Position numbers and translations under genes: made by a program
Part shown: piece by piece, positions 1-33,325 of the stretch
Layout: every line of letters starts with the position of its first letter
Numbering within the stretch: the first letter of the stretch is position 1
Notes under the pieces: generated by a model
The model's database searches: none
What the model was told of the DNA's origin: nothing
The model's input: only the letters and a program-made list of their open reading frames with translations
Virus record (IMG/VR): IMGVR_UViG_3300008113_000082
Coordinates: 80,451 to 113,906 of that record
Direction: 5' to 3' (one strand)
DNA length: 33,456 nt
Source: a virus

Positions 1-1907
1 GCAAAGAACTTTTTAACAGCTTTGTCGTCCTCGCCCTCTTTACCTAGCTCACCAAATCCAATAGTATTATTTTCATTATCGCGAGCACCTAAGTTGCTGG
101 TCATAATTAAAATGCAATTACGTCCGTCTGCAACCTTTCCATTAGAACCAGTTACAAATCCGTTATCCATGAATGCTAACAGAATGTTTGTAACGTCTGG
201 GTGTGCTTTTTCAACTTCGTCTAATAATAAAATACAATTAGGAGTTTCTTGTAGTTTAGTAATTAACTGACCAGCATTGTCTTCATACCCCACATAGCCA
301 GGAGGTGCACCAATTAATCGAGACACTGAGTGTTTTTCTTGATATTCGCCCATGTCAAAGCGCACAAGAGGCATACTCATCTTTTCACTCAATTGTTTTG
401 CAGTTTCAGTCTTGCCACAACCAGTTGGCCCTAAAAATAAGAAACTACCAATAGGCTTATTGGGCGATTTCATACCTGCCTGTGCCACAAAGATTTTATC
501 AAGCAACGTGTTAACAGCAGTATCCTGACCGTATACCGCAGTTTTCATTCCGTCCTCTAATCCAGAAAGATTTTTGCTTTCTTTCTGAGCCACTGTTTCT
601 AATGGCATATTAATCATCTTACTTAACTCGTAAGTAATTTGTTCAATGTCAACCAATTGTTCAACACCGTCCATATCTGGATCGTCTTTAATTTTATAAC
701 GTGCGGCAGCACAATCTAAAATATCAATTGCTTTATCTGGCAATTTTTTATCTGACATATACTTAATAGATAACTTGACAGCTTGCTCAATTGCTGCATC
801 AGTAATCCTAACATTATGATGTTTTTCATAATATTTTTTAATACCCTTAAGGATCTTAATAGTTACTTCTGCAGTCGGTTCGTCAATAGTAACACGTTGG
901 AATCTGCGCATCAGCGCACGATCCTTTTCAAAGTACTTGCGATACTCTTCCCATGTGGTCGAGGCAATTAACTTAATTGTACCTTTAGTGAGAATTGGCT
1001 TAAGCATATTGGCCATGTCATTAGAACTTTGGCTTGAAGCTCCTGCACCGTTGATCATGTGTGCTTCGTCGATAAAAAGAATAATTTTTCCTTTCTTTTC
1101 TAATGCTCCTAACACAGCTTTAAGACGTTCTTCAAAATCTCCACGATACTTACTGCCAGCAATCAATGAACTAACGTCAAGTGTGTATACTTGATGATCC
1201 TGAATAAATTTTGGAACTTTCTTTTCAAAAATCTTACGAGCAAGCCCTTCGGCAATAGCAGTCTTACCAACACCGGGCTCGCCTACCATTAATACATTGC
1301 ATTTATTGCGTCGTGCCAATACTAGTTGAATTTTTTCTAGTTCTTCATCACGACCAATTACCGGATCAATTTTACGTTGTTTTGCTTGTAGGCTAAGGTT
1401 TGTACAGAATTGATTAATAATTCGCTCCATTTGATTAGGTGTTGTGATTGCATTTTCAGTTTCGTGTTCTTCGTCACCTATCATTTCTTGGAAATATGTA
1501 ACAAATTTATCTTTAGTTAATCCGCCTTTTGTTAGGAAATAGAATCCAAACGAATTTTTTTCACTAAGGATGCCAATAACTACATCGGCAATTTCGATAC
1601 GTTGGCGACCGCTAAACAGTACCTGTGTAAAACAACGATTCAACACACGCTCTACCGCATGTGTCTTTTTTGGTTTATCGTTACTAGAATTTTTAATATC
1701 GTCTAAATTATTTTTAAGATAATGTTCTAGATTAGTTTTGATAAAATTTGAATCAACACCAAATTTTTCTAACATCTCGTAGGATTCTTTGTCACTCATT
1801 ATACCATATAAAATATGTTCAATGGTGACATATTCATGCTGGTGTTGTTTAGCAACACTTACTGAATATTCAAAAACCGTTTGTAATCCTTGACTTGGTT
1901 CGATCAT
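1..1907 (-). CDS. clpA: ClpA-type AAA+ unfoldase, C-terminus cut by window edge
   Basis: Reads from ATG at 1907 to the window edge (635 residues; the family is usually about 750, so roughly the last 120 are missing). Order: Clp N-domain (about 1-145, in ClpA the ClpS-binding domain), AAA+ module 1 with Walker A GEPGVGKT (209-216) and Walker B IILFIDEAH, then AAA+ module 2 with Walker A GPTGCGKT (493-500) and Walker B CILLLDEVEKAHPDV. It lacks the long coiled-coil middle domain of ClpB. An IGF tripeptide at 616-618 sits where E. coli ClpA has its IGL ClpP-docking loop, so this reads as a proteolytic partner unfoldase and not a disaggregase. The start overlaps the def stop as TAATG, implying translational coupling in a dnaJ-def-clpA operon. 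No clpP is visible, so host ClpP is the presumed peptidase (inference). The ClpA family call is firm; the role in infection is unknown. Confidence 0.95.
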   Translation of the reverse strand, partial: MIEPSQGLQTVFEYSVSVAKQHQHEYVTIEHILYGIMSDKESYEMLEKFGVDSNFIKTNLEHYLKNNLDDIKNSSNDKPKKTHAVERVLNRCFTQVLFSGRQRIEIADVVIGILSEKNSFGFYFLTKGGLTKDKFVTYFQEMIGDEEHETENAITTPNQMERIINQFCTNLSLQAKQRKIDPVIGRDEELEKIQLVLARRNKCNVLMVGEPGVGKTAIAEGLARKIFEKKVPKFIQDHQVYTLDVSSLIAGSKYRGDFEERLKAVLGALEKKGKIILFIDEAHMINGAGASSQSSNDMANMLKPILTKGTIKLIASTTWEEYRKYFEKDRALMRRFQRVTIDEPTAEVTIKILKGIKKYYEKHHNVRITDAAIEQAVKLSIKYMSDKKLPDKAIDILDCAAARYKIKDDPDMDGVEQLVDIEQITYELSKMINMPLETVAQKESKNLSGLEDGMKTAVYGQDTAVNTLLDKIFVAQAGMKSPNKPIGSFLFLGPTGCGKTETAKQLSEKMSMPLVRFDMGEYQEKHSVSRLIGAPPGYVGYEDNAGQLITKLQETPNCILLLDEVEKAHPDVTNILLAFMDNGFVTGSNGKVADGRNCILIMTSNLGARDNENNTIGFGELGKEGEDDKAVKKFF

Positions 1908-2401
1908 TACTTCATTTTCCTTATTTTCTTCATAGCTAAGTTTAACTTCATTTGTGACACTTTGTCAACAAAACAAATGCCTAACAAGTGATCATACTCG
2001 TGTTGAAAGCATCTTGCAACTAGTCCATCCATCTCTGCTTCGATCGTATCGCCGCTACTGTTTTGATACTCTACTAGAATCTTTTTAGGACGTTTAATTT
2101 TTAACCATAGATCCGGATAACTCAAACATCCTTCTTTTTCTAAAATTACATCTTCACTAACTTTTAATATTTTAGGATTAAACACAGCAAACGGAATAGG
2201 AAATCCTTGAATATTATTACTACCAATAGTGAATACTTGTTTTGTAAGACCAATTTGATTTGCAGCCAATCCTATGCCGTGATTTGCAACCATAAATTCG
2301 CACATGTCTTTTTCAAGTCGATCAGCATCTCCGTCAACTGCAAAATCCCAAGGAGTGCTTGGCACTACAAGAGACTGGTGAGGCCCTAATTTAAACTCCA
2401 T
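1907..2401 (-). CDS. def: Peptide deformylase
   Basis: A 164-residue metallo-hydrolase that removes the formyl group from the N-terminal Met of nascent proteins, in the cytoplasm at the ribosome exit. All three family motifs are present: GIGLAANQ (42-49), EGCLS (90-94, metal ligand Cys92) and QHEYDH (133-138, ligands His134 and His138, catalytic Glu135). Length is close to bacterial enzymes, so this is not the shortened form without a C-terminal helix. The ATG is preceded by AGGA about 8 bases upstream and overlaps the end of the dnaJ-like gene by 11 bases; its stop overlaps the clpA start as TAATG. Deformylases are known in cyanophages, where support of host protein synthesis has been proposed. 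Here it sits between a J-protein and ClpA, which points to nascent-protein handling (inference). Confidence 0.96.
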   Translation of the reverse strand: MEFKLGPHQSLVVPSTPWDFAVDGDADRLEKDMCEFMVANHGIGLAANQIGLTKQVFTIGSNNIQGFPIPFAVFNPKILKVSEDVILEKEGCLSYPDLWLKIKRPKKILVEYQNSSGDTIEAEMDGLVARCFQHEYDHLLGICFVDKVSQMKLNLAMKKIRKMK

Positions 2402-3242
2402 CTCTAATTTCCTGTATTTTTTGTAATTGAGATTTAGATAAATTTTTCGGAATATCTACTTTAATACGAACTAATAAATTACCGCGTACTCTAGTTCGCA
2501 TGTTTGGAATGCCTTCACCTTTGCAACTTAATACTGTATCTGGTTGTGTGCCGTGTGGAATGTTAATAGTTAAATTTTTCCCATCAACAGTTGAAATGGC
2601 TATAGCAGAACCCAACATTGCTTGCCATACATCTACTCTTTTTTCAGTAATGATGTCATCGTCTTCTCGATAGAATTCCGGATGAGCTTTAACATACACA
2701 TTGACAATTAAATCGCCTGCTGGAACATCACGCATACTTTGATCGCCTATTCCCTGATATCTAATTTGCTGACCATGTTGCACACCAGGTGGTATAGAAA
2801 TATTAACAATCTTTGATTGTCCGCCTGGGACACTTAGTTCAGCATTTAATTCTTTTCCAGCAATAACATCGTTCAACGTTAATTCAACATTAACATTTAA
2901 TGTGCGATTTTTGCGCATCTGATTCCTAAAACCAAATCCAAAGGCTTGTCCAAACAGGTCATCCATTCCAGGAGCACCACCAAAGTGGAATTCAAATGGA
3001 TTTCCGCCACCTTGATGATAAAACCCGCCACCCTGTTGTTGACGAGTTGGATCCATGCCAGAATCAATCATTTGTTTCTTTTGAGGATCGCACAAAAATT
3101 CATATGCCTGACTAATTTCTTTAAATTTCTTTTCATCACCCCCACGGTCGGGATGATGTTTCATAGCCATGCTACGATATGCTTTTTTAATATCGGCGTC
3201 TGTTGCGCCACGTTGTAAACCAAGAGTTGAGTAATAATCCAT
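2391..3242 (-). CDS. dnaJ: DnaJ/CbpA-like J-domain co-chaperone (no zinc finger)
   Basis: A 283-residue class-B J-protein that would stimulate an Hsp70 and deliver substrates to it. The J-domain (about 1-65) has the HPD triad at 30-32. A Gly/Phe/Gln-rich linker with GGG and FHFGG runs about 70-108, followed by the two beta-barrel substrate-binding domains (about 112-283) with ELTLNDVIAGKE and IPPGVQHGQQIRYQGIG. The CxxCxGxG zinc-finger repeats of true DnaJ are absent, so it is architecturally like CbpA. No Hsp70 gene is in the window, so the host DnaK (or HscA) is the presumed partner. It is first gene of the dnaJ-def-clpA operon. The ATG lies only 9 bases after a perfect -10 box and has no Shine-Dalgarno sequence, so its mRNA from that promoter should be leaderless. 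No later Met would keep the J-domain intact. Confidence 0.93.
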   Translation of the reverse strand: MDYYSTLGLQRGATDADIKKAYRSMAMKHHPDRGGDEKKFKEISQAYEFLCDPQKKQMIDSGMDPTRQQQGGGFYHQGGGNPFEFHFGGAPGMDDLFGQAFGFGFRNQMRKNRTLNVNVELTLNDVIAGKELNAELSVPGGQSKIVNISIPPGVQHGQQIRYQGIGDQSMRDVPAGDLIVNVYVKAHPEFYREDDDIITEKRVDVWQAMLGSAIAISTVDGKNLTINIPHGTQPDTVLSCKGEGIPNMRTRVRGNLLVRIKVDIPKNLSKSQLQKIQEIRDGV

Positions 3243-3251
3243 AGTCTTTAT

Positions 3252-3280
3252 ATTATACGATAAAAAAAGGACTGTGTCAA
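3252..3280 (-). promoter_or_regulatory. Consensus sigma70 promoter for the dnaJ-def-clpA operon
   Basis: On the minus strand TTGACA (3280-3275), a spacer of exactly 17 bases, then TATAAT (3257-3252). Both hexamers match the sigma70 consensus perfectly. Start of transcription is expected at about 3246-3243, essentially at the dnaJ-like ATG (3242), giving a leaderless message. The -35 box lies in the loop and adjoining arm of the upstream terminator hairpin. Confidence 0.85.
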
Positions 3281-3291
3281 GCAGTCCTTTT
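3262..3291 (-). terminator. Rho-independent terminator of the lysis / small secreted protein unit
   Basis: On the minus strand a 10-bp stem (3291-3282 with 3274-3265, arms AAAAGGACTG and CAGTCCTTTT) with a 7-base loop, running into a T-tract. It lies 25 bases after the stop of the small secreted protein gene and before the dnaJ-like gene, so it separates the lysis unit from the chaperone operon. Confidence 0.85.
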
Positions 3292-3315: not shown

Positions 3316-3531
3316 TTATTTTTTCTTTTCTGGAACTGGAGTACCGTCGTGTTTTTTATGCACTTTGATAGTTTTGCAAGTTTGTTTTACGCTACCATCT
3401 TTGTTCTTAACTGGTTTCTTATCCTTGCCAATTGTGTCTTTGCAGACCTGTTTAGTTTTTGCTGCCCCATCTGCTGCAAAAACAGGAGCAATAAATGCTA
3501 ACGATATTAATAATACTAATATTTTTTTCAT
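3316..3531 (-). CDS. Small secreted Lys-rich protein with two cysteines
   Basis: A 71-residue protein with a clear Sec signal peptide: MKK, a hydrophobic core about 4-16, and probable cleavage after VFA (about residue 19). The mature part is about 52 residues, very rich in Lys, and built from two related halves (KQVCK...KKPVKNKDG and KQTCK...KKHDG), each with one Cys. The two Cys could form a disulphide in the periplasm. SD AAAGGA lies 8 bases before the ATG. It is 12 bases downstream of the holin-like gene and ends before a strong terminator, so it is the last gene of the lysis transcript. I do not recognise the family; periplasmic or wall-binding roles are possible but not shown. Confidence 0.75.
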   Translation of the reverse strand: MKKILVLLISLAFIAPVFAADGAAKTKQVCKDTIGKDKKPVKNKDGSVKQTCKTIKVHKKHDGTPVPEKKK

Positions 3532-3543
3532 TTTATTTTCCTT

Positions 3544-4029
3544 TTACAGTTCTGGTTCAGCAGCCGGTGCTGGACCTAATTTGCCGTTACCTGCCGCTGT
3601 TGGTGCTGATTTTGTTGCTATTGGTGTTGCGCCCCAGCTCGGTGCCGGTGTAAAACTTGTGCTCGGTGCCGGTGTACCAAACCCACCTGATTGTGGTTGA
3701 CCAAATGTTGTTGTGACGCTCTGTGATACTGGTGCAAGTCCGCCATTATTTGCCCCACCTAGTTTTTCTTGTGTTCGTCCCCATGCTGCCAAACCTAGTA
3801 CTGCACCCATGGCAATATGAAACAGTCCAGCACCTTGCAGTGTTATTGGTTGCCATTGAGTTTTAACTTCACCACCACCTATAACTTGGATCACGCTCCA
3901 TAGTACAGGGAACAACATAAAATCTGCTGAACATACAGCCATGTACATCCAACCCATCATTGGACGCCATTTTGAATTCATCCAATCTTCTTTTTGTTGT
4001 TCGCTTGCGCTTTTAATTTCCTCTGCCAT
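3544..4029 (-). CDS. Holin-like membrane protein with Ala/Pro-rich tail
   Basis: A 161-residue protein. A charged N-terminus is followed by WRPMMGWMYM and hydrophobic segments at about 24-50 and 64-84, then a long low-complexity tail (about 90-161) rich in Gly, Ala, Pro, Ser and Thr with FGTPAP / FTPAP-type units. The WRP-xx-GW membrane start resembles the 3TM holin group found beside phage endolysins, and it lies in the same transcript as the GH19 endolysin and spanins, which supports a role in opening the inner membrane. The tail is longer than I would expect for such holins. SD AGGAG lies 8 bases upstream of the ATG. The call is probable, not certain; a virion or other membrane role remains possible. 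Confidence 0.65.
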   Translation of the reverse strand: MAEEIKSASEQQKEDWMNSKWRPMMGWMYMAVCSADFMLFPVLWSVIQVIGGGEVKTQWQPITLQGAGLFHIAMGAVLGLAAWGRTQEKLGGANNGGLAPVSQSVTTTFGQPQSGGFGTPAPSTSFTPAPSWGATPIATKSAPTAAGNGKLGPAPAAEPEL

Positions 4030-4051
4030 AGTTTTCGCTCCTATTAGTTTA

Positions 4052-4168
4052 TTATTTCTTAGCTAACATTGTTTGAATCTTTTCCTGAATTGCTTTGGCC
4101 CAGAATGGCTGAGGAAAATTCCATCCTACAAATGCTCCTACTGCTACCCATAATAAAATATCTAACAT
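4052..4168 (-). CDS. 38-residue membrane microprotein in lysis cassette
   Basis: A short reading frame from ATG at 4168 (SD GGGAG 7 bases upstream) to TAA at 4054-4052. The product begins MLDILLWVAVGAFVGWNF, one hydrophobic helix, followed by PQPFWAK and an amphipathic Lys/Gln tail ending LAKK. It sits between the i-spanin gene and the holin-like gene with gaps of 26 and 22 bases. The strong ribosome site, compositional match to a one-pass membrane protein and conserved operon position make it likely real. Small one-pass proteins in such positions can be holins, antiholins or pinholins, but no such function can be shown here. Confidence 0.7.
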   Translation of the reverse strand: MLDILLWVAVGAFVGWNFPQPFWAKAIQEKIQTMLAKK

Positions 4169-4194
4169 AACAACGCTCCCTATTGTTTATACTA

Positions 4195-4809
4195 TTATTT
4201 AACGCTTTCAAAGATTTTCTTCTGCTCTCGATACCATTCTTGCCACATTCTCAATTTTTCTGCGTTTTCGTGGCAGGCTCCGTAGTTTTCAACGACTCTG
4301 TCGAGGAGCTGACTGGCTTCAATGCCACTGGGGGTTCCATCAGTTGCGGCGGCACGCTCGGGAACTTCATTACGACTGGCGCTGTCGTGCAAGCTGACAG
4401 TAGACTTAGGCAAAGTACACTGAGCATCCAACTGTTTACCCGCAACTTCTTTGATAATTTCTCTGTTGACATAGACATTTTCCTTAATGACTTTAACTTT
4501 TGTAACTATTTTTGTTTCGATGACTGTGTTAACCTGCTGGCTTTTTTCTTCAGCAACCTTAACTTTGGCTTCTAATTCTGCCACACGAGCCTGCCATGCA
4601 GACTGTACACCGTAGCCACCGTAAAAGTAAGCCCCGATAACTAGCAATACAACACCAACAACTTCTGCTGGTAATTTGTACTGACCCATCATGGGTATCC
4701 ATTGTACTAATTTGCTGGCAATGTACAGCACGACACCTGCTGACAGCATGATATAGTATATAAAAATAAAAATGCTTTCAGGCATAATGCTTAGTAACCA
4801 ACCAAACAT
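4195..4809 (-). CDS. Inner-membrane spanin-like protein (i-spanin / Rz-like), two TM segments
   Basis: A 204-residue protein with two predicted membrane segments (about 10-32 and 47-65), a charged coiled-coil-like stretch (about 70-115, AELEAKVKVAEEK and KVIKENVYVNREIIKEV) and a soluble C-terminal half. Spanin identity rests on position (next to GH19 endolysin) and on the o-spanin lipoprotein frame nested inside it, the classic Rz/Rz1 arrangement. It would link the inner membrane to the outer-membrane lipoprotein in the last lysis step. Lambda-type Rz has one N-terminal TM, so the extra segment is unusual and may add a holin-like function or change topology. SD AGGGG 6 bases before the ATG is embedded in the last codons of the endolysin gene. 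Confidence 0.75.
   Translation of the reverse strand: MFGWLLSIMPESIFIFIYYIMLSAGVVLYIASKLVQWIPMMGQYKLPAEVVGVVLLVIGAYFYGGYGVQSAWQARVAELEAKVKVAEEKSQQVNTVIETKIVTKVKVIKENVYVNREIIKEVAGKQLDAQCTLPKSTVSLHDSASRNEVPERAAATDGTPSGIEASQLLDRVVENYGACHENAEKLRMWQEWYREQKKIFESVK
4251..4472 (-). CDS. Outer-membrane spanin lipoprotein (o-spanin / Rz1-like), nested
   Basis: A frame wholly inside the i-spanin gene, same strand, different frame; 73 residues from ATG 4472. AAGGA 8 bases upstream favours this ATG over the one at 4478, which is only 2 bases from it. The N-terminus has Lys/Arg, then a hydrophobic core and lipobox LSAC followed by TTAPV, a signal-peptidase II site. The mature part is Pro/Ser/Thr-rich (PSVPPQLMEPPVALKPV), as in Rz1 proteins. 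Known family behaviour: the lipoprotein is anchored in the outer membrane and contacts the i-spanin C-terminus across the periplasm, causing membrane fusion at lysis. A chance shadow frame would be unlikely to have SD, signal, lipobox and Pro-rich tail together. Confidence 0.8.
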   Translation of the reverse strand: MSTEKLSKKLRVNSWMLSVLCLSLLSACTTAPVVMKFPSVPPQLMEPPVALKPVSSSTESLKTTEPATKTQKN

Positions 4810-4810
4810 A

Positions 4811-5437
4811 TCAAACCCCTAGTACGTGCAATGCGTGTTCGTAATGCTTGATTCGATCTTCTAGGCCAATAGTGCCACCGTTAATGCGTTTTGTTAATGT
4901 GAGGATGTCGCCCTTGTCTGCCCATTGATTTAGATTATTTGTTTCCCAAAACCAACAAGCTGATTGTAAGGCACCTTCAAATGTTGCTAGGTATTCTGGA
5001 ACTTCTTCGACAGTCATTTCAAGGCTTTCGGCAAATGCTGTGTAGTTTTGCTTGCCGGTAAGTTGTATAAGGCCTCTACCGCAGTAGCGGAATCCGTCAC
5101 CACTTGCTTCATCGCCATTGCCCATTCGATTGCCATAAACTCTGTTGGCAATTTTTTCACCTTGCTTTTCGTATTGTTTTGCAATTCCTAGATCTGGAAA
5201 ATACTTTGGAAATACTTTTACAAGACTTTCTGCACGATAGTTTAAATTTTCTTTTAATGCAGTGAACCCTGCACTCTCGTGAGCGCACTGAGCAATAAAC
5301 GCTGCTACACGCTGTGGAGTATTAATTTCATATTCTGGAAGTATATTACTACAAGCATCATACCATTGATCCACATAGGGATTCTTTGGAATCATTTCTT
5401 GTAATTGTTCTTTTGTAAATTCAAATGTAAAGCTCAT
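4811..5437 (-). CDS. Endolysin, glycoside hydrolase family 19
   Basis: A 208-residue single-domain GH19 (chitinase-like) muralytic enzyme that cuts the glycan strands of peptidoglycan. Visible signatures are AQCAHESAGF with probable catalytic Glu54, ENLNYRAE with the second acid at about Glu63, and YCGRGLIQLTGKQNY, the substrate-groove motif. No signal peptide is seen, so export to the wall should depend on the holin. The ATG overlaps the upstream stop as TAATG, with AAGGA 7 bases upstream. It heads the lysis genes i-spanin/o-spanin, microprotein and holin-like protein. Confidence 0.93.
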   Translation of the reverse strand: MSFTFEFTKEQLQEMIPKNPYVDQWYDACSNILPEYEINTPQRVAAFIAQCAHESAGFTALKENLNYRAESLVKVFPKYFPDLGIAKQYEKQGEKIANRVYGNRMGNGDEASGDGFRYCGRGLIQLTGKQNYTAFAESLEMTVEEVPEYLATFEGALQSACWFWETNNLNQWADKGDILTLTKRINGGTIGLEDRIKHYEHALHVLGV

Positions 5438-11617: not shown

Positions 11618-12016
11618 TTATTGATTAATAAAATCTTCTGGGCGAATGTTTGATGACAACGATTCAAATTCTTGCCCAATATAAAAATCATTTGGTTTTT
11701 CGTCAGCTACTGCTATGACAGACTTTGTTTCTACTTTTTGAAATTCTTTGTCACCGTCACCGTCGTTGATTTTAATCTTGCGAGTCCAACGTCCATGTTC
11801 AATAAGAATCCATTGACCTTCTTTAACAAAATCAATTTCTGAACCAACCTTGTATACTTTGGCCCAGCGTGGTTTAACACCATGTGCTTTACCGTCGTCG
11901 CTGGCAATAAAAATGCCGCCATTGGATACTTGCTCGCCCATGTGCATGTCAACAACAAGGATGTCTTTTGGCAATGCACGAATTTTAACCTTCTTGGCTT
12001 CAAATGCAAAGCTCAT
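11618..12016 (-). CDS. GroES-like co-chaperonin (T4 gp31-like role)
   Basis: 132 residues from ATG 12016 (AAGG 5 bases upstream, one base after the previous stop). The early part KIRALPKDILVVDMHMGEQ matches the start of the GroES beta-barrel. SNGGIFIAS (31-39) sits where GroES has its mobile loop GGIVL, which docks on GroEL. WAKVYKVGS (51-59) and VKEGQWILIEHGRWTRKIKI (64-83) match the later barrel strands, and VIAVAD (100-105) the closing strand. It would cap host GroEL to fold phage proteins, as T4 gp31 does for the capsid protein. The C-terminal acidic tail (about 106-132) is extra. Divergent from bacterial GroES, so a probable call; it adds to the J-protein and ClpA of the same genome. Confidence 0.72.
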   Translation of the reverse strand: MSFAFEAKKVKIRALPKDILVVDMHMGEQVSNGGIFIASDDGKAHGVKPRWAKVYKVGSEIDFVKEGQWILIEHGRWTRKIKINDGDGDKEFQKVETKSVIAVADEKPNDFYIGQEFESLSSNIRPEDFINQ

Positions 12017-12017
12017 A

Positions 12018-12245
12018 TTAACCTTTTCTACGTGCGGCAATTTCTTCTTGTACAGCTCTAGGATTTGCTGCATAGTAGTCTTGCAAAATTTGTTCTTTTG
12101 TACGCACAATTTTGCCGCCAACACCGATTTCGTCTCCTCGAGCATTTACTTTCATATTGCCTACTGCTGGCAACAGCTCATTTTGAAGATTTAACTTTTC
12201 CATGTCAACTTCTTTACCGCGCATACTCATGTGAGTTTTACCCAT
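12018..12245 (-). CDS. Small conserved phage protein, function unknown
   Basis: 75 residues, ATG 12245 with a very good SD (AAGGAG). Landmarks are KTHMSMRGKEVDMEKLNLQN, VGNMKVNARGDEIGVGGKIV and a helical basic end ending ARRKG. Probably partly disordered; no membrane segment. I have an impression of similar short proteins in cyanophage genomes, again without function. One base separates it from the GroES-like gene, and one base from the DnaE-like gene upstream. Confidence 0.7.
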   Translation of the reverse strand: MGKTHMSMRGKEVDMEKLNLQNELLPAVGNMKVNARGDEIGVGGKIVRTKEQILQDYYAANPRAVQEEIAARRKG

Positions 12246-12246
12246 T

Positions 12247-12714
12247 TTATATCTCCTTAAAGAATTCTTCTATTGGTATATTGTATTTAATACTGTCAAT
12301 CTTATGGACCCCTATGATGTGGAGAACATAACTGGCTACACTAGAGCCACGTCCTACACCCCAAACTACATTATTGGCCCTTAATGTGTCTACTACATAT
12401 TTCATAGTTCTAAGTACTGGTATCATATTGTGTTTTTCAAACAATTTTATTTCTTGAATTACACGCTGGTGATTAATACTGGGACTATTTTGAATTAGAA
12501 ATTCTGTAATGTTTAGTTCTTGATATTCTTTTGGAAGATGCCAATTAGCAACATCTATAGTTTGTTTTGGTCGGGGATAGTTTAAATGCTCAATATCTAA
12601 TCTTTCTAGGTATTGAGTTAATTCGGCAGAATCTGCAAGACACTTGGCCAGTATGTCTGGACCATGCCTTAATACACCTTCTATAAGTTGTTCTTGTGTG
12701 CTGTTAGTCCACAT
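12247..12714 (-). CDS. DNA polymerase III alpha (DnaE) palm-like fragment protein
   Basis: 155 residues. The C-terminal half MKYVVDTLRANNVVWGVGRG (104-123), continuing SSVASYVLHIIGVHKIDSIK and YNIPIEEFF, closely follows the DnaE segment that runs from the start of the palm through G-x-GRGS to LKYNLLFERF. The catalytic Asp residues of DnaE come after this point and are absent, so it cannot be a polymerase alone. The N-terminal half (HLNYPRPKQTIDVANWHLP) is not clearly DnaE. Length and clean gene boundaries (coupled on both sides) argue for a stable phage family and not a decayed gene. It could bind DNA or dNTP, or modulate host Pol III (speculative). Confidence 0.75.
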   Translation of the reverse strand: MWTNSTQEQLIEGVLRHGPDILAKCLADSAELTQYLERLDIEHLNYPRPKQTIDVANWHLPKEYQELNITEFLIQNSPSINHQRVIQEIKLFEKHNMIPVLRTMKYVVDTLRANNVVWGVGRGSSVASYVLHIIGVHKIDSIKYNIPIEEFFKEI

Positions 12715-13644: not shown

Positions 13645-15294
13645 TTAACCTTTTGCTCGTATGCGCACTCTGGGATAAACTGATCCTGATGTAGGTCTGT
13701 TTTTAAATGTGGTTTTTGGCAGACTTTGTCCGCTTACGGGTCTTTCTAAATTATAAAATAGATATCGATTATTTCCGTTATCTCCAAACCATTGATAGTT
13801 TGCAATGCTTGCACCAGTAGTTCCGACTTGGTTCTTTTTGGAATGTGTTATTAGATAAGTTAACGCTTCGCTTGAACCTAGATTTGGATTTTGTTCAGCA
13901 TAACAGGCTAACAGGCCACATACTTGCGGTGATGCCATACTGGTTCCAGAAATGCTACCTAGTTTATAACTGGCATTTCTAGGATCGTTTACTAGGGTAA
14001 TACTAAATTCGGCAGCAGCAGTTGAGTCATAGACTGCGGACGCAATATTGGTTCCCGGAGCCCATACGTCAACTCGGTTGCCAAAGTTACTTGAGCTATT
14101 TTTATATTCTTGTTGGGCACTACCAACATTGCCTACAACAACTACTCCAGGCGCTACAGCAGGACTTGATCCTTGAGAATGAACATAATCAAATCCACCG
14201 CTTCTAATGCTATTATTGTAATCTTGATCGCCACTGTATGCAGAATTCCAAAAACTGTTGCCAGCCGCCGCCACAACAATAACTCCGTCTGCTAGGGCAT
14301 CTGCTACGTCGGCATTGAGGGCAGCATAGGTATAGGGCATTCTATAAAGATATGTGCTGCCAGGAACCGGAACACCGTTTGCTTCCAATATGGTTTTTTT
14401 GGCCGCATCAGTTCCTGACACTGCTGTAGTAACTCCTCTGTAAGTTACACTGGTAATTGACGATAGTTGAATATCATCATACGAGTAGCCCCAACTGTGA
14501 TTGGTTATGGTTGGGTTTCTTTTTCCAGTAGTGGTGTTAACAGTTTTATTTTTATGGAATGCTCTGAGATAATCAAAAATATAAAGTTCCCAGTTGGCAG
14601 GAGAGTTTGCTCCTACATAGCTGAATTCCATGTTATAGATGTTGGCATCACGTGCCCAGCCTTGTGTGTTGCCCGCCACTGTGCCAGCCACGTGTGTTCC
14701 GTGGTTGCTGGAGATATCACTGTAATCATAAGCACCAACAGTGCCTACTCCAACAATACCACTTAACGCAAACCAATTGTATTGATTAACTCTTGATCCA
14801 CCAGTGCCGTCTGCATTAACAGCAAACTCAGGATGAAGGGGATTAATGTGCGCATCGACGACCACAACGTCCACATTCTTTCCTGAGCTGGTTGTAGTCA
14901 CAGTTTGCGTTGTTTGTGTAAATGAAGCATCAGTACCCCAGCCTGCCAATGTGTTGCCTGCTGTGGTTCTATACAGTCCCCAATTTTTATCATTGGCATC
15001 GATGGTAGAATTTTTTTCAAAGTTTCCAGATTGTGTCCAGTGGTGAACTATTTTGATGCCTATGTCTCTAGGAGGACGTTCTACAGCTATTACTCTAGGA
15101 TCAGTTCTTAGTTGAACTGCTTCTTCATCAGACAACATGAAATGCGTGTTTCTACTAAGTTCTCTCAACTGTGTTATGCTAACTTGTCTGTTAGGAATAT
15201 AAAGATTTCCGTTAGGTGACTCCATATCTGCAATAATTGAATCAGCGTCGCTCATTGTCTGAGCAGTAACAACGTATTCTTTTAAGTCGCTCAT
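13645..15294 (-). CDS. Subtilisin-like serine protease (peptidase S8)
   Basis: 549 residues from ATG 15294, with GAGG 6 bases upstream inside the end of the previous gene. Region 1-78 looks like an I9-type propeptide (ending DPRVIAVERPPRD). Catalytic set: Asp147 in VDVVVVDAHINPLHPEF, His198 in SSNHGTHVAGTVAG, oxyanion Asn346 in VVAAAGN, and Ser452 in SGTSMASPQVCG. The usual D-S/T-G after the first strand reads D-A-H, a small deviation; the other motifs are canonical. No signal peptide or membrane segment. It lies inside the fibre block, coupled to a 1272-residue fibre gene, so a virion-associated or virion-processing protease, or one acting on the host surface, is likely (inference). Confidence 0.93.
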   Translation of the reverse strand: MSDLKEYVVTAQTMSDADSIIADMESPNGNLYIPNRQVSITQLRELSRNTHFMLSDEEAVQLRTDPRVIAVERPPRDIGIKIVHHWTQSGNFEKNSTIDANDKNWGLYRTTAGNTLAGWGTDASFTQTTQTVTTTSSGKNVDVVVVDAHINPLHPEFAVNADGTGGSRVNQYNWFALSGIVGVGTVGAYDYSDISSNHGTHVAGTVAGNTQGWARDANIYNMEFSYVGANSPANWELYIFDYLRAFHKNKTVNTTTGKRNPTITNHSWGYSYDDIQLSSITSVTYRGVTTAVSGTDAAKKTILEANGVPVPGSTYLYRMPYTYAALNADVADALADGVIVVAAAGNSFWNSAYSGDQDYNNSIRSGGFDYVHSQGSSPAVAPGVVVVGNVGSAQQEYKNSSSNFGNRVDVWAPGTNIASAVYDSTAAAEFSITLVNDPRNASYKLGSISGTSMASPQVCGLLACYAEQNPNLGSSEALTYLITHSKKNQVGTTGASIANYQWFGDNGNNRYLFYNLERPVSGQSLPKTTFKNRPTSGSVYPRVRIRAKG

Positions 15295-15295
15295 A

Positions 15296-18200
15296 TTAGG
15301 CCTCAAGTTGCAACACAGTTAGTGTAACAGTAATAGCCGCCACACCGCCGCTTTTATTTGTAACTGCTAACTGAATGTTAGTTGAAGGAGTACTTTCATT
15401 GCTGAATCCCATTGAGCCTGGACTAATCAATATAGTTTCTGCTCCTGTGGTAATAACTTCAGCTATCACGCCGGCTCCTGGAAGGGGATCTGTTAATTCA
15501 CTTCGGCCAGCATCTGCTGTTCTACTAGCAACATCAGTGTAAATTCTAACCCAAGCCGCTGCCGAAGTCTGTATTTTATACAACACATAACCTTTGAAAC
15601 CAGTTATGGTTAGATTTCCTGTGGCAGCATTGGCCAAACTAGCTGTGGTAGCATTAGCTGTGGTACGTGTGATAGGTGCTTGATAATCAGTACCTGCCAC
15701 AGCAATGGACAATACTCCTGTTGTGGTTGTGCTTTTTACAATACCTGTTGCCAATGCGCTGGTACCAGGCGCATAATCAGTGCCGCTAGTTGCGGCAGTG
15801 AGGGCGTTTGCTCCGTTACCTTTAACTAACCCACTGATAGTTCCAATTGGTGCTTGATAATCAGTACCAGCTACTGCGGCTGATATGGCAGTGCCATTGC
15901 CTTTCAACACACCGGTGATACTGGTTGTGATTGTGATAGCTGGAGTTGAACTGGCAGTGGCCACTGTGCCTGTAAACCCGTTTGCTGAGGTAACACTTAC
16001 TGTGGTAACTGTGCCAGCACCAGCGCCGCCTGCGGTGGCATCAGCATCATTGATCCAATTGGTACCATTGTACTTTAATACTTGGCCAGTACTTGGGCTA
16101 GTAATAGCTACTCCAGTCAACGTGCTTAAACTGGGAACTCCGGTATAGGCTGTGGTCTGTACTGTAGCATTTGGAAATGTTAAACTGCCATCTGTGCCTA
16201 AGGTCCAAGTTGCTTGAGTACCAAAGCCAGCTCGTAGTTTAATTTTCTGATAAGGTCCGCCAAAGATATTTAATGCACTGTTGGCACTGTTGACTCCGTA
16301 ATCAACTGACTCAACATAAGCATTACCACCGGTGTTTAGAATTAATTTGCCGCCGTTAACTACAACACCGCCAGTGCCATTGCATTCTAGTTCAAGGTTG
16401 GCGTTTGTGACCGTTGTGCTGATTCTATTTCCCACAACAGTGATCTGATCAGTTTTGAACCTTTCAGCTGTGGCAGCACCAGTGACATTTAATGTTGCCT
16501 GTGTGCCTACAACACCAGTCCAGGCTGTGCTTTGAACTGTGTCATCTGGGAATGTCAATGTTTTTGTGAGGCCCGGTGCGTCTGTGCTAAAGGTCCATCC
16601 ATTAAATGCTACAAGAGGTTCGCTACCGTCACCTAGATCATTAGTAATTCTTTGTCCGATCTTAAAGTTAAGGTTGTCTAATTCAGTTAGGTATTCACCG
16701 GTCAGTGATGGCTCACCCTCACCTAATGTATTGATAACTTGGAAGGAGCTGAGAATTCCGTTGGTGCTAACTTCAAATAGAGATTGACCTGTTAGTGACG
16801 GGTTACCTCCTAGATTATTAGTAACTCCGTTTGTGATAACTGTCTTTGATTGAGATACTTCAAGTTGACTTCCGCTGCCGCCCATATCACCGGCAACATA
16901 ATTGCTAATTGTATTACCGGCAATCTTAAGAACACCGTTAGGGAATGTTAGATCCCCATCTTCACCAAACTGCCATCTGCGCAGTGTTGAGTCTGCAAGG
17001 TTGATGTCAATGTTGATGTTGCCGTTGCTCTTGATATCACCTGGTATAGTTAAGCTACCATCGAAGCCAAAGGTCCAAGCCGCAGCGGTAAATAGGCCAT
17101 CATCGGCTTGTATGCTAACATTACCATCACTTGCTAACTTAACATACTGATCGTCATTGCCTAGGAATAATTCTGTAGTGGTTAAGTCTCCGGAAGTGAG
17201 ATGTAAGTGATTGGCATCAGGACCAGTAGTAGGATACACTAATAATTGTTGAGTAGCACTAGTCCCACCATTTGGAGTCAACACAATAGTATTACCGGTC
17301 AAGGCCCCACCTGGAATGCTGCCTTCTGAAATGTTGCCGCCTGAGGGCAATGTTAAACTGCCAGTAGGATCAAATGTCCAGATTCTCGCAGAACTATCCG
17401 ACGCATCAACGGTTATCTTTACACTTTCTGTAGAAGTTAGATAGACATCACCGTTAGTAGCTTTGATTTCTATAGCGTTAGCATCTCCGGCATTGTTGCC
17501 TGCTGATGAGCCAAATATTAGTTTACCACCACCGAAAAGACCACCACCGGCGATATAGCTCAGGCTCTGATCAGTGCCGTCGAGGAATAGATACTTGCCA
17601 GTAGTGCTGTGTGTTGTACCAATGTAGAAACCTGCGGTGTCTGATGCTAAAAGATTCCAGTTTAGTGTTATCCTATCGCTGCCTATGCTATTGTCGCTGA
17701 ATTCCCAAACAAAACTGTTTGTTGTATTGCCATTAGTAGTTGGCATTGTAACGGTCTGTCCAGCGTAGTTGGCACCGTCTGGAAATGTTAACTTGCCATC
17801 CTCGCCAAACTGCCATCTGCGCAGAGTTGAATCTCCAGGGTTGATTTCAATGTTGATGTTGTTGTTGCTCTTGATATCACCTGGAATCTCTAGATTACCA
17901 TCGGGTGTAAATCTCCAATTCCAATTAGCGAAATTTGGAGCAACCACTCCGATGTTATATCCAAATAAATCTGCTGACGTGGTAGTGCGTCTTGACAATG
18001 GTTGGGTATAACCTGTAGGAACAACACCTTGTGGGTCCCAAGTTGTTTTGAATTGAGCCAGCCCTTTACTGACTATATTAAGACCACCAATAATTGTGCT
18101 TTCAATATAATTAACACTTCCAGCACCCTTGTAAATTTGCAGGTCATTTGGAGTCATTAGACTGCCATCTTCACCGAACTGCCAACGGCGCAGCGTTGAG

Positions 18201-32714: not shown

Positions 32715-33002
32715 ATGTTCTTAAAAAAACAAATCCAACAAAGTCAATATGTTAGACGCAGTAAGAATGGTGTTGAACACAAATACACCAGGGAAAAAAC
32801 TGTGGCAATATTTCTATGTGATAATTGTAGCAACGAATTTAGTCGAGATGTGAGACTAATGGATCGTAAGAGATTAAACAACAATTATTTTCATGTCTGC
32901 GGGAATTGTGATTCTAAAAGATTTGCTCAAAGAAAAGGAGTCGAGCAAAAGAAAATTTGGGATATGCCGGCAAGTACTACCTTGCCTGTAGGCAAGTACT
33001 AA
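32715..33002 (+). CDS. Small zinc-ribbon protein
   Basis: 95 residues on plus, divergent from the giant structural gene. Two CxxC pairs, C35-DN-C38 and C62-GN-C65, about 24 residues apart, would bind one zinc. Between them are basic and polar residues (EFSRDVRLMDRKRLNNN), and the N-terminus is basic (KKQ...RRSKNGVEHKY), suggesting nucleic-acid binding. The C-terminus ends PASTTLPVGKY. There is no SD before the ATG at 32715; TGTAAATACATT precedes it directly. It overlaps the iscA stop by 4 bases on the opposite strand. HNH endonucleases can contain such ribbons, but I see no H-N-H core, so no nuclease call. Confidence 0.75.
   Translation: MFLKKQIQQSQYVRRSKNGVEHKYTREKTVAIFLCDNCSNEFSRDVRLMDRKRLNNNYFHVCGNCDSKRFAQRKGVEQKKIWDMPASTTLPVGKY
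32981..32996. other. Hairpin at the convergent gene ends
   Basis: CTTGCC (32981-32986) pairs with GGCAAG (32991-32996) around TGTA, inside the last codons of the zinc-ribbon gene and just before its overlap with iscA. A 10-base direct repeat GGCAAGTACT occurs at 32969-32978 and 32991-33000. No T-tract follows on either strand, so at most a weak terminator or RNA end-stabilising element. Confidence 0.35.
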
Positions 33003-33325
33003 ATTCTAAAACTTTCGCCACACCCACAGCGATCACGTTCGTTTGGGTTTATAAAATCAAACCCTTCATTAAGTCCGTTGCGAACCCAATCCATCGTTAA
33101 GCCATCCAGATAGGCTAAACTTTTGGCATCAACTAACAACACAAAATCTGGTTGTCCAAAATTTGTTACACCTACTTCGGCCTCGTAACTATCTACATAC
33201 TCCAGCACATAAGCTAATCCGCTACACCCTGTAGTACGAACACCTATACGAATGCCGACACCTTTACCACGTTTTACCAAGTTTTGCTTGATTCGTTTAC
33301 TGGCTGTGTCGGTTACGATAATCAT
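32999..33325 (-). CDS. iscA: IscA, A-type iron-sulphur carrier
   Basis: 108 residues, standard IscA length. The three conserved cysteines are present: Cys34 in VRTTGCSGLAYVLEYVD and Cys100 and Cys102 in RCGCGESFRI. RGKGVGIRIGVRT and LNEGFDFINPN are close to enterobacterial and beta-proteobacterial IscA and not to ErpA. Known role: binds iron or an Fe-S cluster and passes it to apo-enzymes. Its ATG lies 29 bases inside the end of iscU, with AAGG upstream, so the two are translated together. HesB/IscA-like genes have been reported from marine phages; a full iscU partner is less usual. Confidence 0.95.
   Translation of the reverse strand: MIIVTDTASKRIKQNLVKRGKGVGIRIGVRTTGCSGLAYVLEYVDSYEAEVGVTNFGQPDFVLLVDAKSLAYLDGLTMDWVRNGLNEGFDFINPNERDRCGCGESFRI

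Follow-up and report, generated by a model that had tools for sequence, protein, structure and literature searches.

Why should a virus carry, in a single row, genes for a J-protein, a peptide deformylase (PDF) and a ClpA-type unfoldase? The question was raised by a first-pass annotation of the stretch analyzed here, which comprises bases 80451-113906 of the 113,906-base IMG/VR virus record IMGVR_UViG_3300008113_000082 (33,456 nucleotides, referred to as the window) and on whose minus strand the three genes run in the order dnaJ, def, clpA. The annotation took the trio for a coupled operon by which the phage retunes host proteostasis. From the conserved order and overlap, the intact catalytic and docking motifs and a predicted promoter nested in a terminator, we conclude that the trio probably opens an early, host-sigma-70-driven protein quality control operon within one clade of large, T4-like viruses related to jumbo phages.

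The dnaJ-def-clpA cassette and its conservation

The window J-protein gave Pfam matches to DnaJ (1.4e-21) and DnaJ_C (6.8e-40), the PDF matched Pep_deformylase (1.1e-40; 139.2 bits against a cut-off of 22.8), and the ClpA-type protein gave clear matches to Clp_N, AAA and AAA_2. Together with the coordinates (Table 1), these matches bore out the three gene assignments of the annotation, including the 11-base overlap and the TAATG junction. The annotation had also called the motifs of all three genes intact; the motifs were confirmed, but clpA itself is incomplete, running off the window at base 1 directly after a 20-N scaffold gap, with the remainder of the gene beyond the gap. A complete ClpA of 775 amino acids (L005:7336-9663) is provided by L005, an IMG/VR contig that carries the identical trio.

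When IMG/VR was searched with DnaJ and PDF as queries, 95 loci were retrieved, and near-copies were then merged into clusters set at 95% ClpA identity. dnaJ together with clpA was conserved at 80 loci representing 43 clusters, among them the cultured phages Phosso and Atu_ph07. def lay between the two genes in 35 of the 43 clusters (in L074 accompanied by an insert of 1.2 kb) and was missing from the other 8. The order expected by the annotation in related contigs was therefore found there; it is not unique to this record, nor do the relatives hold only unlinked copies. The dnaJ/def overlap was exactly 11 bases in 27 of the 35 def-bearing clusters (26 scored by script, plus L032, where the script had chosen an upstream start codon), and the def/clpA junction took the form TAATG, ATGA or TAATATG. 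Dozens of diverged viruses share the order and the overlap, which puts the arrangement far beyond chance. The distance matrices of ClpA, DnaJ and PDF correlated pairwise (r = 0.96, 0.90 and 0.89; null maximum of 0.54 in 999 permutations), and ratios of nonsynonymous to synonymous polymorphism (pN/pS) of 0.04-0.31 in close pairs showed purifying selection on dnaJ, def and clpA. These data indicate that the three genes, as judged from their sequences, co-evolve. A bacterial operon was rejected as the source of the cassette: none of 80 bacterial dnaJ loci had def or clpA nearby (dnaK was nearby in 66), and the trio is therefore a viral arrangement.

The HPD motif of the J-protein was present in every locus scanned, and the protein lacks the CxxCxGxG zinc finger. 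It scored below the NCBIfam equivalog cut-offs for TIGR02349 (231.2 versus 377.2) and for the curved DNA-binding protein (103.7 versus 403). The PDF, at 130.9 bits, exceeded the curated cut-off of TIGR00079 (103.95), and the motifs serving metal binding and catalysis, GxGLAAxQ, EGCLS and QHExDH, were all found in the window protein and in nearly all relatives. In E. coli, the C-terminal part of PDF binds the ribosome. The phage enzymes of 33 of 35 clusters carry a basic tail (the final 18 residues have a net charge of +5 to +8) that aligns with the C-terminal portion of their bacterial counterparts and is of similar length, suggesting that they keep a ribosome-type tail, the feature needed to act at the ribosome.

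Complete ClpA copies contain two Walker A motifs, and residues 8-736 align with residues 6-737 of E. coli ClpA without a large insertion and with no M-domain. The ClpP-docking IGF loop, aligned to the IGL of the E. coli protein, was found in every complete copy, and profile matches to ClpB and ClpC were split into two stretches. A ClpB-type disaggregase was ruled out by the absent middle domain, the IGF loop and the split ClpB profile. The retained features support a predicted capacity for ClpP docking, through which the unit could feed proteolysis.

The variable member is def. Its presence on the ClpA tree needs 8 changes, at least 5 of which are forced by well-supported branches. When 24 records, many of them fragments, were searched, 14 had def at the cassette locus and the other 10 yielded no def at all; def is therefore not relocated when gone from the locus, and since it can be missing without a copy elsewhere, it is not needed for dnaJ-clpA function. 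We conclude that dnaJ-clpA is the older core and def an optional member; in the simplest history, an old dnaJ-clpA pair would have gained def, with several losses thereafter. The coupled trio that the annotation considered new thus stands as a linked, co-transcribable unit with its own predicted promoter, but its core is the pair, to which def is an add-on.

The repeated loss and gain of def would also fit a simple boost in capacity, in which the genes only supply housekeeping dosage to a heavily translating phage and are neither coupled to one another nor involved in selective turnover of host proteins. Phage PDFs are common; enzymatic activity is on record for a phage PDF, and the Vp16 enzyme has been called the smallest PDF (PMC5591237). 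Jumbo phages likewise have scattered J-proteins and Clp ATPases, ClpP, ClpS, ClpA and DnaJ being noted, without this trio, in the consulted passages of one survey (PMC7824862). However, linkage is strict, the 11-nucleotide overlap is conserved and evolution is congruent, which argues for selection on the unit, and no displaced copy of def turned up in the records checked. We therefore regard dosage as possible, though a weaker candidate than the quality control operon.

A predicted promoter nested in a terminator-like hairpin

The cassette is preceded by a hairpin whose loop holds the −35 box of a consensus promoter (Table 1). At least 11 of the 12 consensus positions were matched in 34 of 49 distinct upstream regions, compared with 0.45% of shuffles, and the −35 box was inside the hairpin in 34 of the 49, although these regions are mutually related and hence not independent trials. 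The stem showed compensatory changes (GGACTG/CAGTCC, GGCTGC/GCAGCC, GGACTAC/GTAGTCC and GGCAGC/GCTGCC), and five upstream regions retained the hairpin without the promoter. Nine nucleotides separate the −10 box from the dnaJ ATG in the window, while relatives usually have six; among 37 regions with at least 10 of 12 matches, the spacing was 6 nucleotides in 21 and 9 in 9, the window included. Such spacing predicts a transcription start at the AUG or within about 3 bases of it, i.e., a leaderless or nearly leaderless mRNA. dnaJ-def-clpA thus appears to have its own sigma-70-type promoter, often placed for a leaderless dnaJ mRNA.

About 60 near-consensus sigma-70 sites in a 353-kb relative (G011) formed two groups according to how far they lie from the start codon: 5-7 nucleotides (13 sites, leaderless-like, e.g., ahead of dnaJ and of a QueE-like gene) and mostly 23-34 nucleotides, with almost none at 8-16. 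A near-consensus site was also seen at 59894 (minus) of the window virus record. Further terminator-like hairpins with a −35 box in their 3′ half occur at 73241 (minus) of the same record and at 66855 and 138659 of G011; the nested terminator-promoter design therefore recurs in these phages.

These features also bear on neutral hitchhiking, in which the gene order would be kept merely by neighbouring essential genes. The entire block of phoH, lysis genes, trio and next gene is indeed syntenic, as hitchhiking would have it. However, each gene of the trio is under purifying selection, both the predicted promoter and the hairpin are conserved, the latter through compensatory substitutions, and dnaJ remains beside clpA even without def. 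Hitchhiking is accordingly very improbable in our judgment.

Partner proteins and the proposed role of the cassette

ClpP-family proteins were found in 7 of 36 records searched, four of them as strong full-length matches, and the G011 copy was assigned to ClpP by NCBIfam subfamily. Full-length DnaK was present in 3 of 36 records and ClpS in 6 of 19. ClpS and ClpP occurred together in the 353-kb relative and in one of 163 kb, in Phosso and in Atu_ph07. The phage ClpS keeps the N-degron pocket residues (NDD/E..TPM and His), and the phage ClpP keeps the Ser-His-Asp triad. In three contigs of large relatives (L120, L122 and L123), dnaK, an Hsp20 gene and clpS are neighbours; chimeric assembly or host contamination behind DnaK and ClpS is unlikely because all three share this order and the surrounding genes. 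A CsgG-like curli secretion gene lies a few genes from the cluster in each. L/F-transferase was found in none of 24 phage records (4 of 14 control genomes were positive, E. coli included), and searches for a phage GrpE and a phage-encoded methionine aminopeptidase found neither.

The mechanism we propose takes its functional steps from the biochemistry of the families. On infection, host RNA polymerase would transcribe a near-leaderless mRNA. The J-protein would pass unfolded nascent or phage proteins to Hsp70, either that of the host or, in some relatives, the phage DnaK. The deformylase, held at the ribosome via its basic tail, would clear formyl groups under high phage translation, and ClpA, docked through its IGF loop on host or phage ClpP, would unfold and degrade misfolding failures or clients delivered by ClpS. 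dnaJ-clpA would provide the core function, with def as a dispensable booster. The selective destruction of host proteins, which the annotation had inferred, is at most possible, and neither an L/F-transferase nor a methionine aminopeptidase of phage origin was found.

Several points weigh against this quality control operon. ClpA scored 893.7 bits, below the NCBIfam ClpA equivalog cut-off of 993.15 (TIGR02639, still the best family), and it is therefore named here a ClpA-type phage homologue rather than a certified equivalog. def is missing in 8 of the 43 clusters, and no copy at another site came to light in those of their records that were checked. ClpP, ClpS and DnaK were not found in the window virus's own 114-kb record, which is probably incomplete and part of a larger genome. 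Both the promoter and the timing of expression are predicted from sequence. Lastly, the cassette sits between virion genes, in synteny with the Pseudomonas phage PA5oct, a position that fits a morphogenesis role too.

A virion-assembly module of this kind would use DnaJ and ClpA, without ClpP, to fold or remodel head and tail proteins, def just travelling along. In PA5oct the dnaJ-clpA pair lies between two virion structural genes on one side and tail or structural genes on the other, and the flanking structural proteins were detected by mass spectrometry; the cassette is near structural genes in the clade of the window as well, and a GroES-like head-morphogenesis co-chaperonin is encoded 8 kb away. 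The invariant IGF loop would nevertheless be superfluous for a ClpP-free remodeller, ClpP and ClpS co-occur in larger relatives, and a separate predicted promoter of early type, placed after a terminator, is out of keeping with late virion genes. We consider an assembly module doubtful.

The quality control operon could be extended in complete members of the clade to a self-contained line for protein handling, with PDF acting at the ribosome, folding by DnaK-DnaJ-Hsp20 and N-degron proteolysis by ClpS-ClpA-ClpP, switched on at once by a terminator-hidden host sigma-70 promoter through a leaderless mRNA and working even in a stressed or dormant host. The gene content and promoter placement of such a line can be read from the genomes; that it operates as a whole seems rather unlikely at present.

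Gene neighbourhood and comparison with known systems

The lysis cassette upstream of the trio (3316-5437, minus) was recognized by Pfam and PHROG matches and is syntenic in relatives. The Pfam Cpn10 match of the GroES-like protein (7.5e-4) was just under the cut-off. The protein of the fourth gene matched nothing in Pfam or PHROG, and no PDB sequence resembled it convincingly. Its predicted model was confident (predicted local distance difference test score of 92.7), and the convincing fold matches were only uncharacterized phage proteins; reverse transcriptase chains matched in PDB at a template modelling score of about 0.27, which is not meaningful. At the place matching the fragment-like gene of the window, the Pseudomonas phage Paride has a gene annotated as DNA polymerase.

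Table 1. Features of the window and of contig L002 considered in this study
Feature	Position	Strand	Remarks
clpA, partial	1-1907	minus	Clp_N and two AAA+ modules; no ClpB middle domain; IGF loop
def stop/clpA start junction	1905-1909	minus	TAATG
def	1907-2401	minus	peptide deformylase, 164 aa; GIGLAANQ / EGCLSYP / QHEYDH; basic C-terminal tail VSQMKLNLAMKKIRKMK
dnaJ stop/def start overlap	2391-2401	minus	11 bases, ATGGAGTTTAA
dnaJ	2391-3242	minus	283 aa, class B J-protein; HPD intact; no zinc finger; DnaJ_C substrate-binding domain
Consensus sigma-70-type promoter (predicted)	3252-3280	minus	TTGACA-N17-TATAAT; −35 box in terminator loop
Intrinsic-terminator-like hairpin	3265-3291	minus	AAAAGGACTG-cttgaca-CAGTCCTTTT, then T run; between lysis cassette and dnaJ-def-clpA
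Small secreted protein	3316-3531	minus	lysis cassette
Holin	3544-4029	minus	lysis cassette
Rz-like inner-membrane spanin	4195-4809	minus	between endolysin and holin
Rz1-like lipoprotein frame	4251-4478	minus	nested in Rz-like spanin
Endolysin	4811-5437	minus	lysis cassette
GroES-like/head-morphogenesis co-chaperonin	11618-12145	minus	phrog_931 5.5e-15; phrog_3188 (GroES) 4.7e-4
Fragment-like protein	12247-12714	minus	155 aa; matches bacterial DNA polymerase III alpha domain
Subtilisin-like (S8) protease	13645-15306	minus	553 aa; among tail-fibre-type genes
HesB/IscA-like protein, first	32999-33325	minus	CGCG(E/S)SF ending; Pfam Fe-S_biosyn
HesB/IscA-like protein, second	L002:5591-5917	minus	CGCG(E/S)SF ending; same virus
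Fourth gene	L002:9050-9724	minus	224 aa; directly 3′ of clpA; overlaps or abuts clpA end in most relatives

Protein quality control genes were already known in pieces from giant phages. What is new is the predicted terminator-nested promoter, the retention of the ClpP-docking loop and PDF tail, the relatives that add ClpP and ClpS, and the three that further add DnaK and Hsp20. Scattered reports of jumbo-phage chaperones and Clp proteins thereby become one conserved, testable locus with a core, a variable member and a control element; terminator-nested promoters with leaderless starts can likewise be tested as a general early-gene design in the group. In the literature found, no work dealt with the three genes as one unit, with their control element or with the complete set that includes DnaK. 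Nothing was found on phage-encoded ClpS plus N-degron or under "phage-encoded peptide deformylase," and only work on Ehrlichia joined phage, peptide deformylase, DnaJ and ClpA.

The ClpA-ClpS-ClpP N-end-rule system of E. coli shares with the phages the ClpA architecture, the IG(L/F) loop, the ClpS pocket residues and the ClpP triad. Unlike in E. coli, the phage clpA is placed with dnaJ rather than clpS, clpS is placed with dnaK-hsp20, and no L/F-transferase was found.

Among phages, PA5oct and Paride (Arenbergviridae, Wroclawvirus) and their relatives have dnaJ-clpA in the corresponding position, following phoH and two structural genes. Their dnaJ is directly upstream of the ClpA gene (9 bp apart), the neighbours are shared (a clamp loader, phoH on the opposite strand and two virion structural genes), ClpA has the IGF loop, and ClpS is encoded elsewhere in the genome. 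They differ in having no def, a shorter (229 amino acids) and diverged DnaJ, no lysis cassette in between and a Shine-Dalgarno-type start before clpA. The Paride gene (OR805295.1, 64212-64901) was deposited as hypothetical, yet its product matches the J domain (3e-17) and DnaJ_C and it lies directly upstream of the ClpA gene; its identical PA5oct counterpart carries the DnaJ annotation. Paride replicates on deep-dormant Pseudomonas aeruginosa (PMC10761892), which adds an angle to the locus, and that report makes no mention of Clp, DnaJ or chaperones.

In the Sinorhizobium phage AP-J-162, gp154 (deformylase) adjoins gp155 (DnaJ) and Clp proteins are in the genome; the genes were not described as an operon (PMC11242549), and the likeness covers the DnaJ/deformylase adjacency. 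Agrobacterium phage Atu_ph07 has adjacent dnaJ-clpA (gp293-gp292) and ClpP and ClpS in its genome, but def was not found anywhere in its 490 kb. The report on this phage listed ClpA, DnaJ, ClpP and ClpS and suggested that they help to clear aggregates and to assemble the phage (PMC6102473). The whole trio is present in Sinorhizobium phage Phosso (PV764938), whose deposited record annotates dnaJ-def-clpA in the same order and on the same strand, with phage ClpP and ClpS elsewhere in the genome. It differs in its 32-43% identity and in a 42-nucleotide gap that replaces the 11-nucleotide overlap, and the terminator-promoter element was not found. The view that the trio had not been seen before therefore does not hold for sequence records, given Phosso, and the dnaJ-clpA core was already annotated in PA5oct and Atu_ph07; it does hold for the literature found, in which the Phosso trio is not discussed as a unit. 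Since the pair (PA5oct, Paride and Atu_ph07) or the trio (Phosso) is present in cultured phages, phage-run proteolysis during infection is directly testable.

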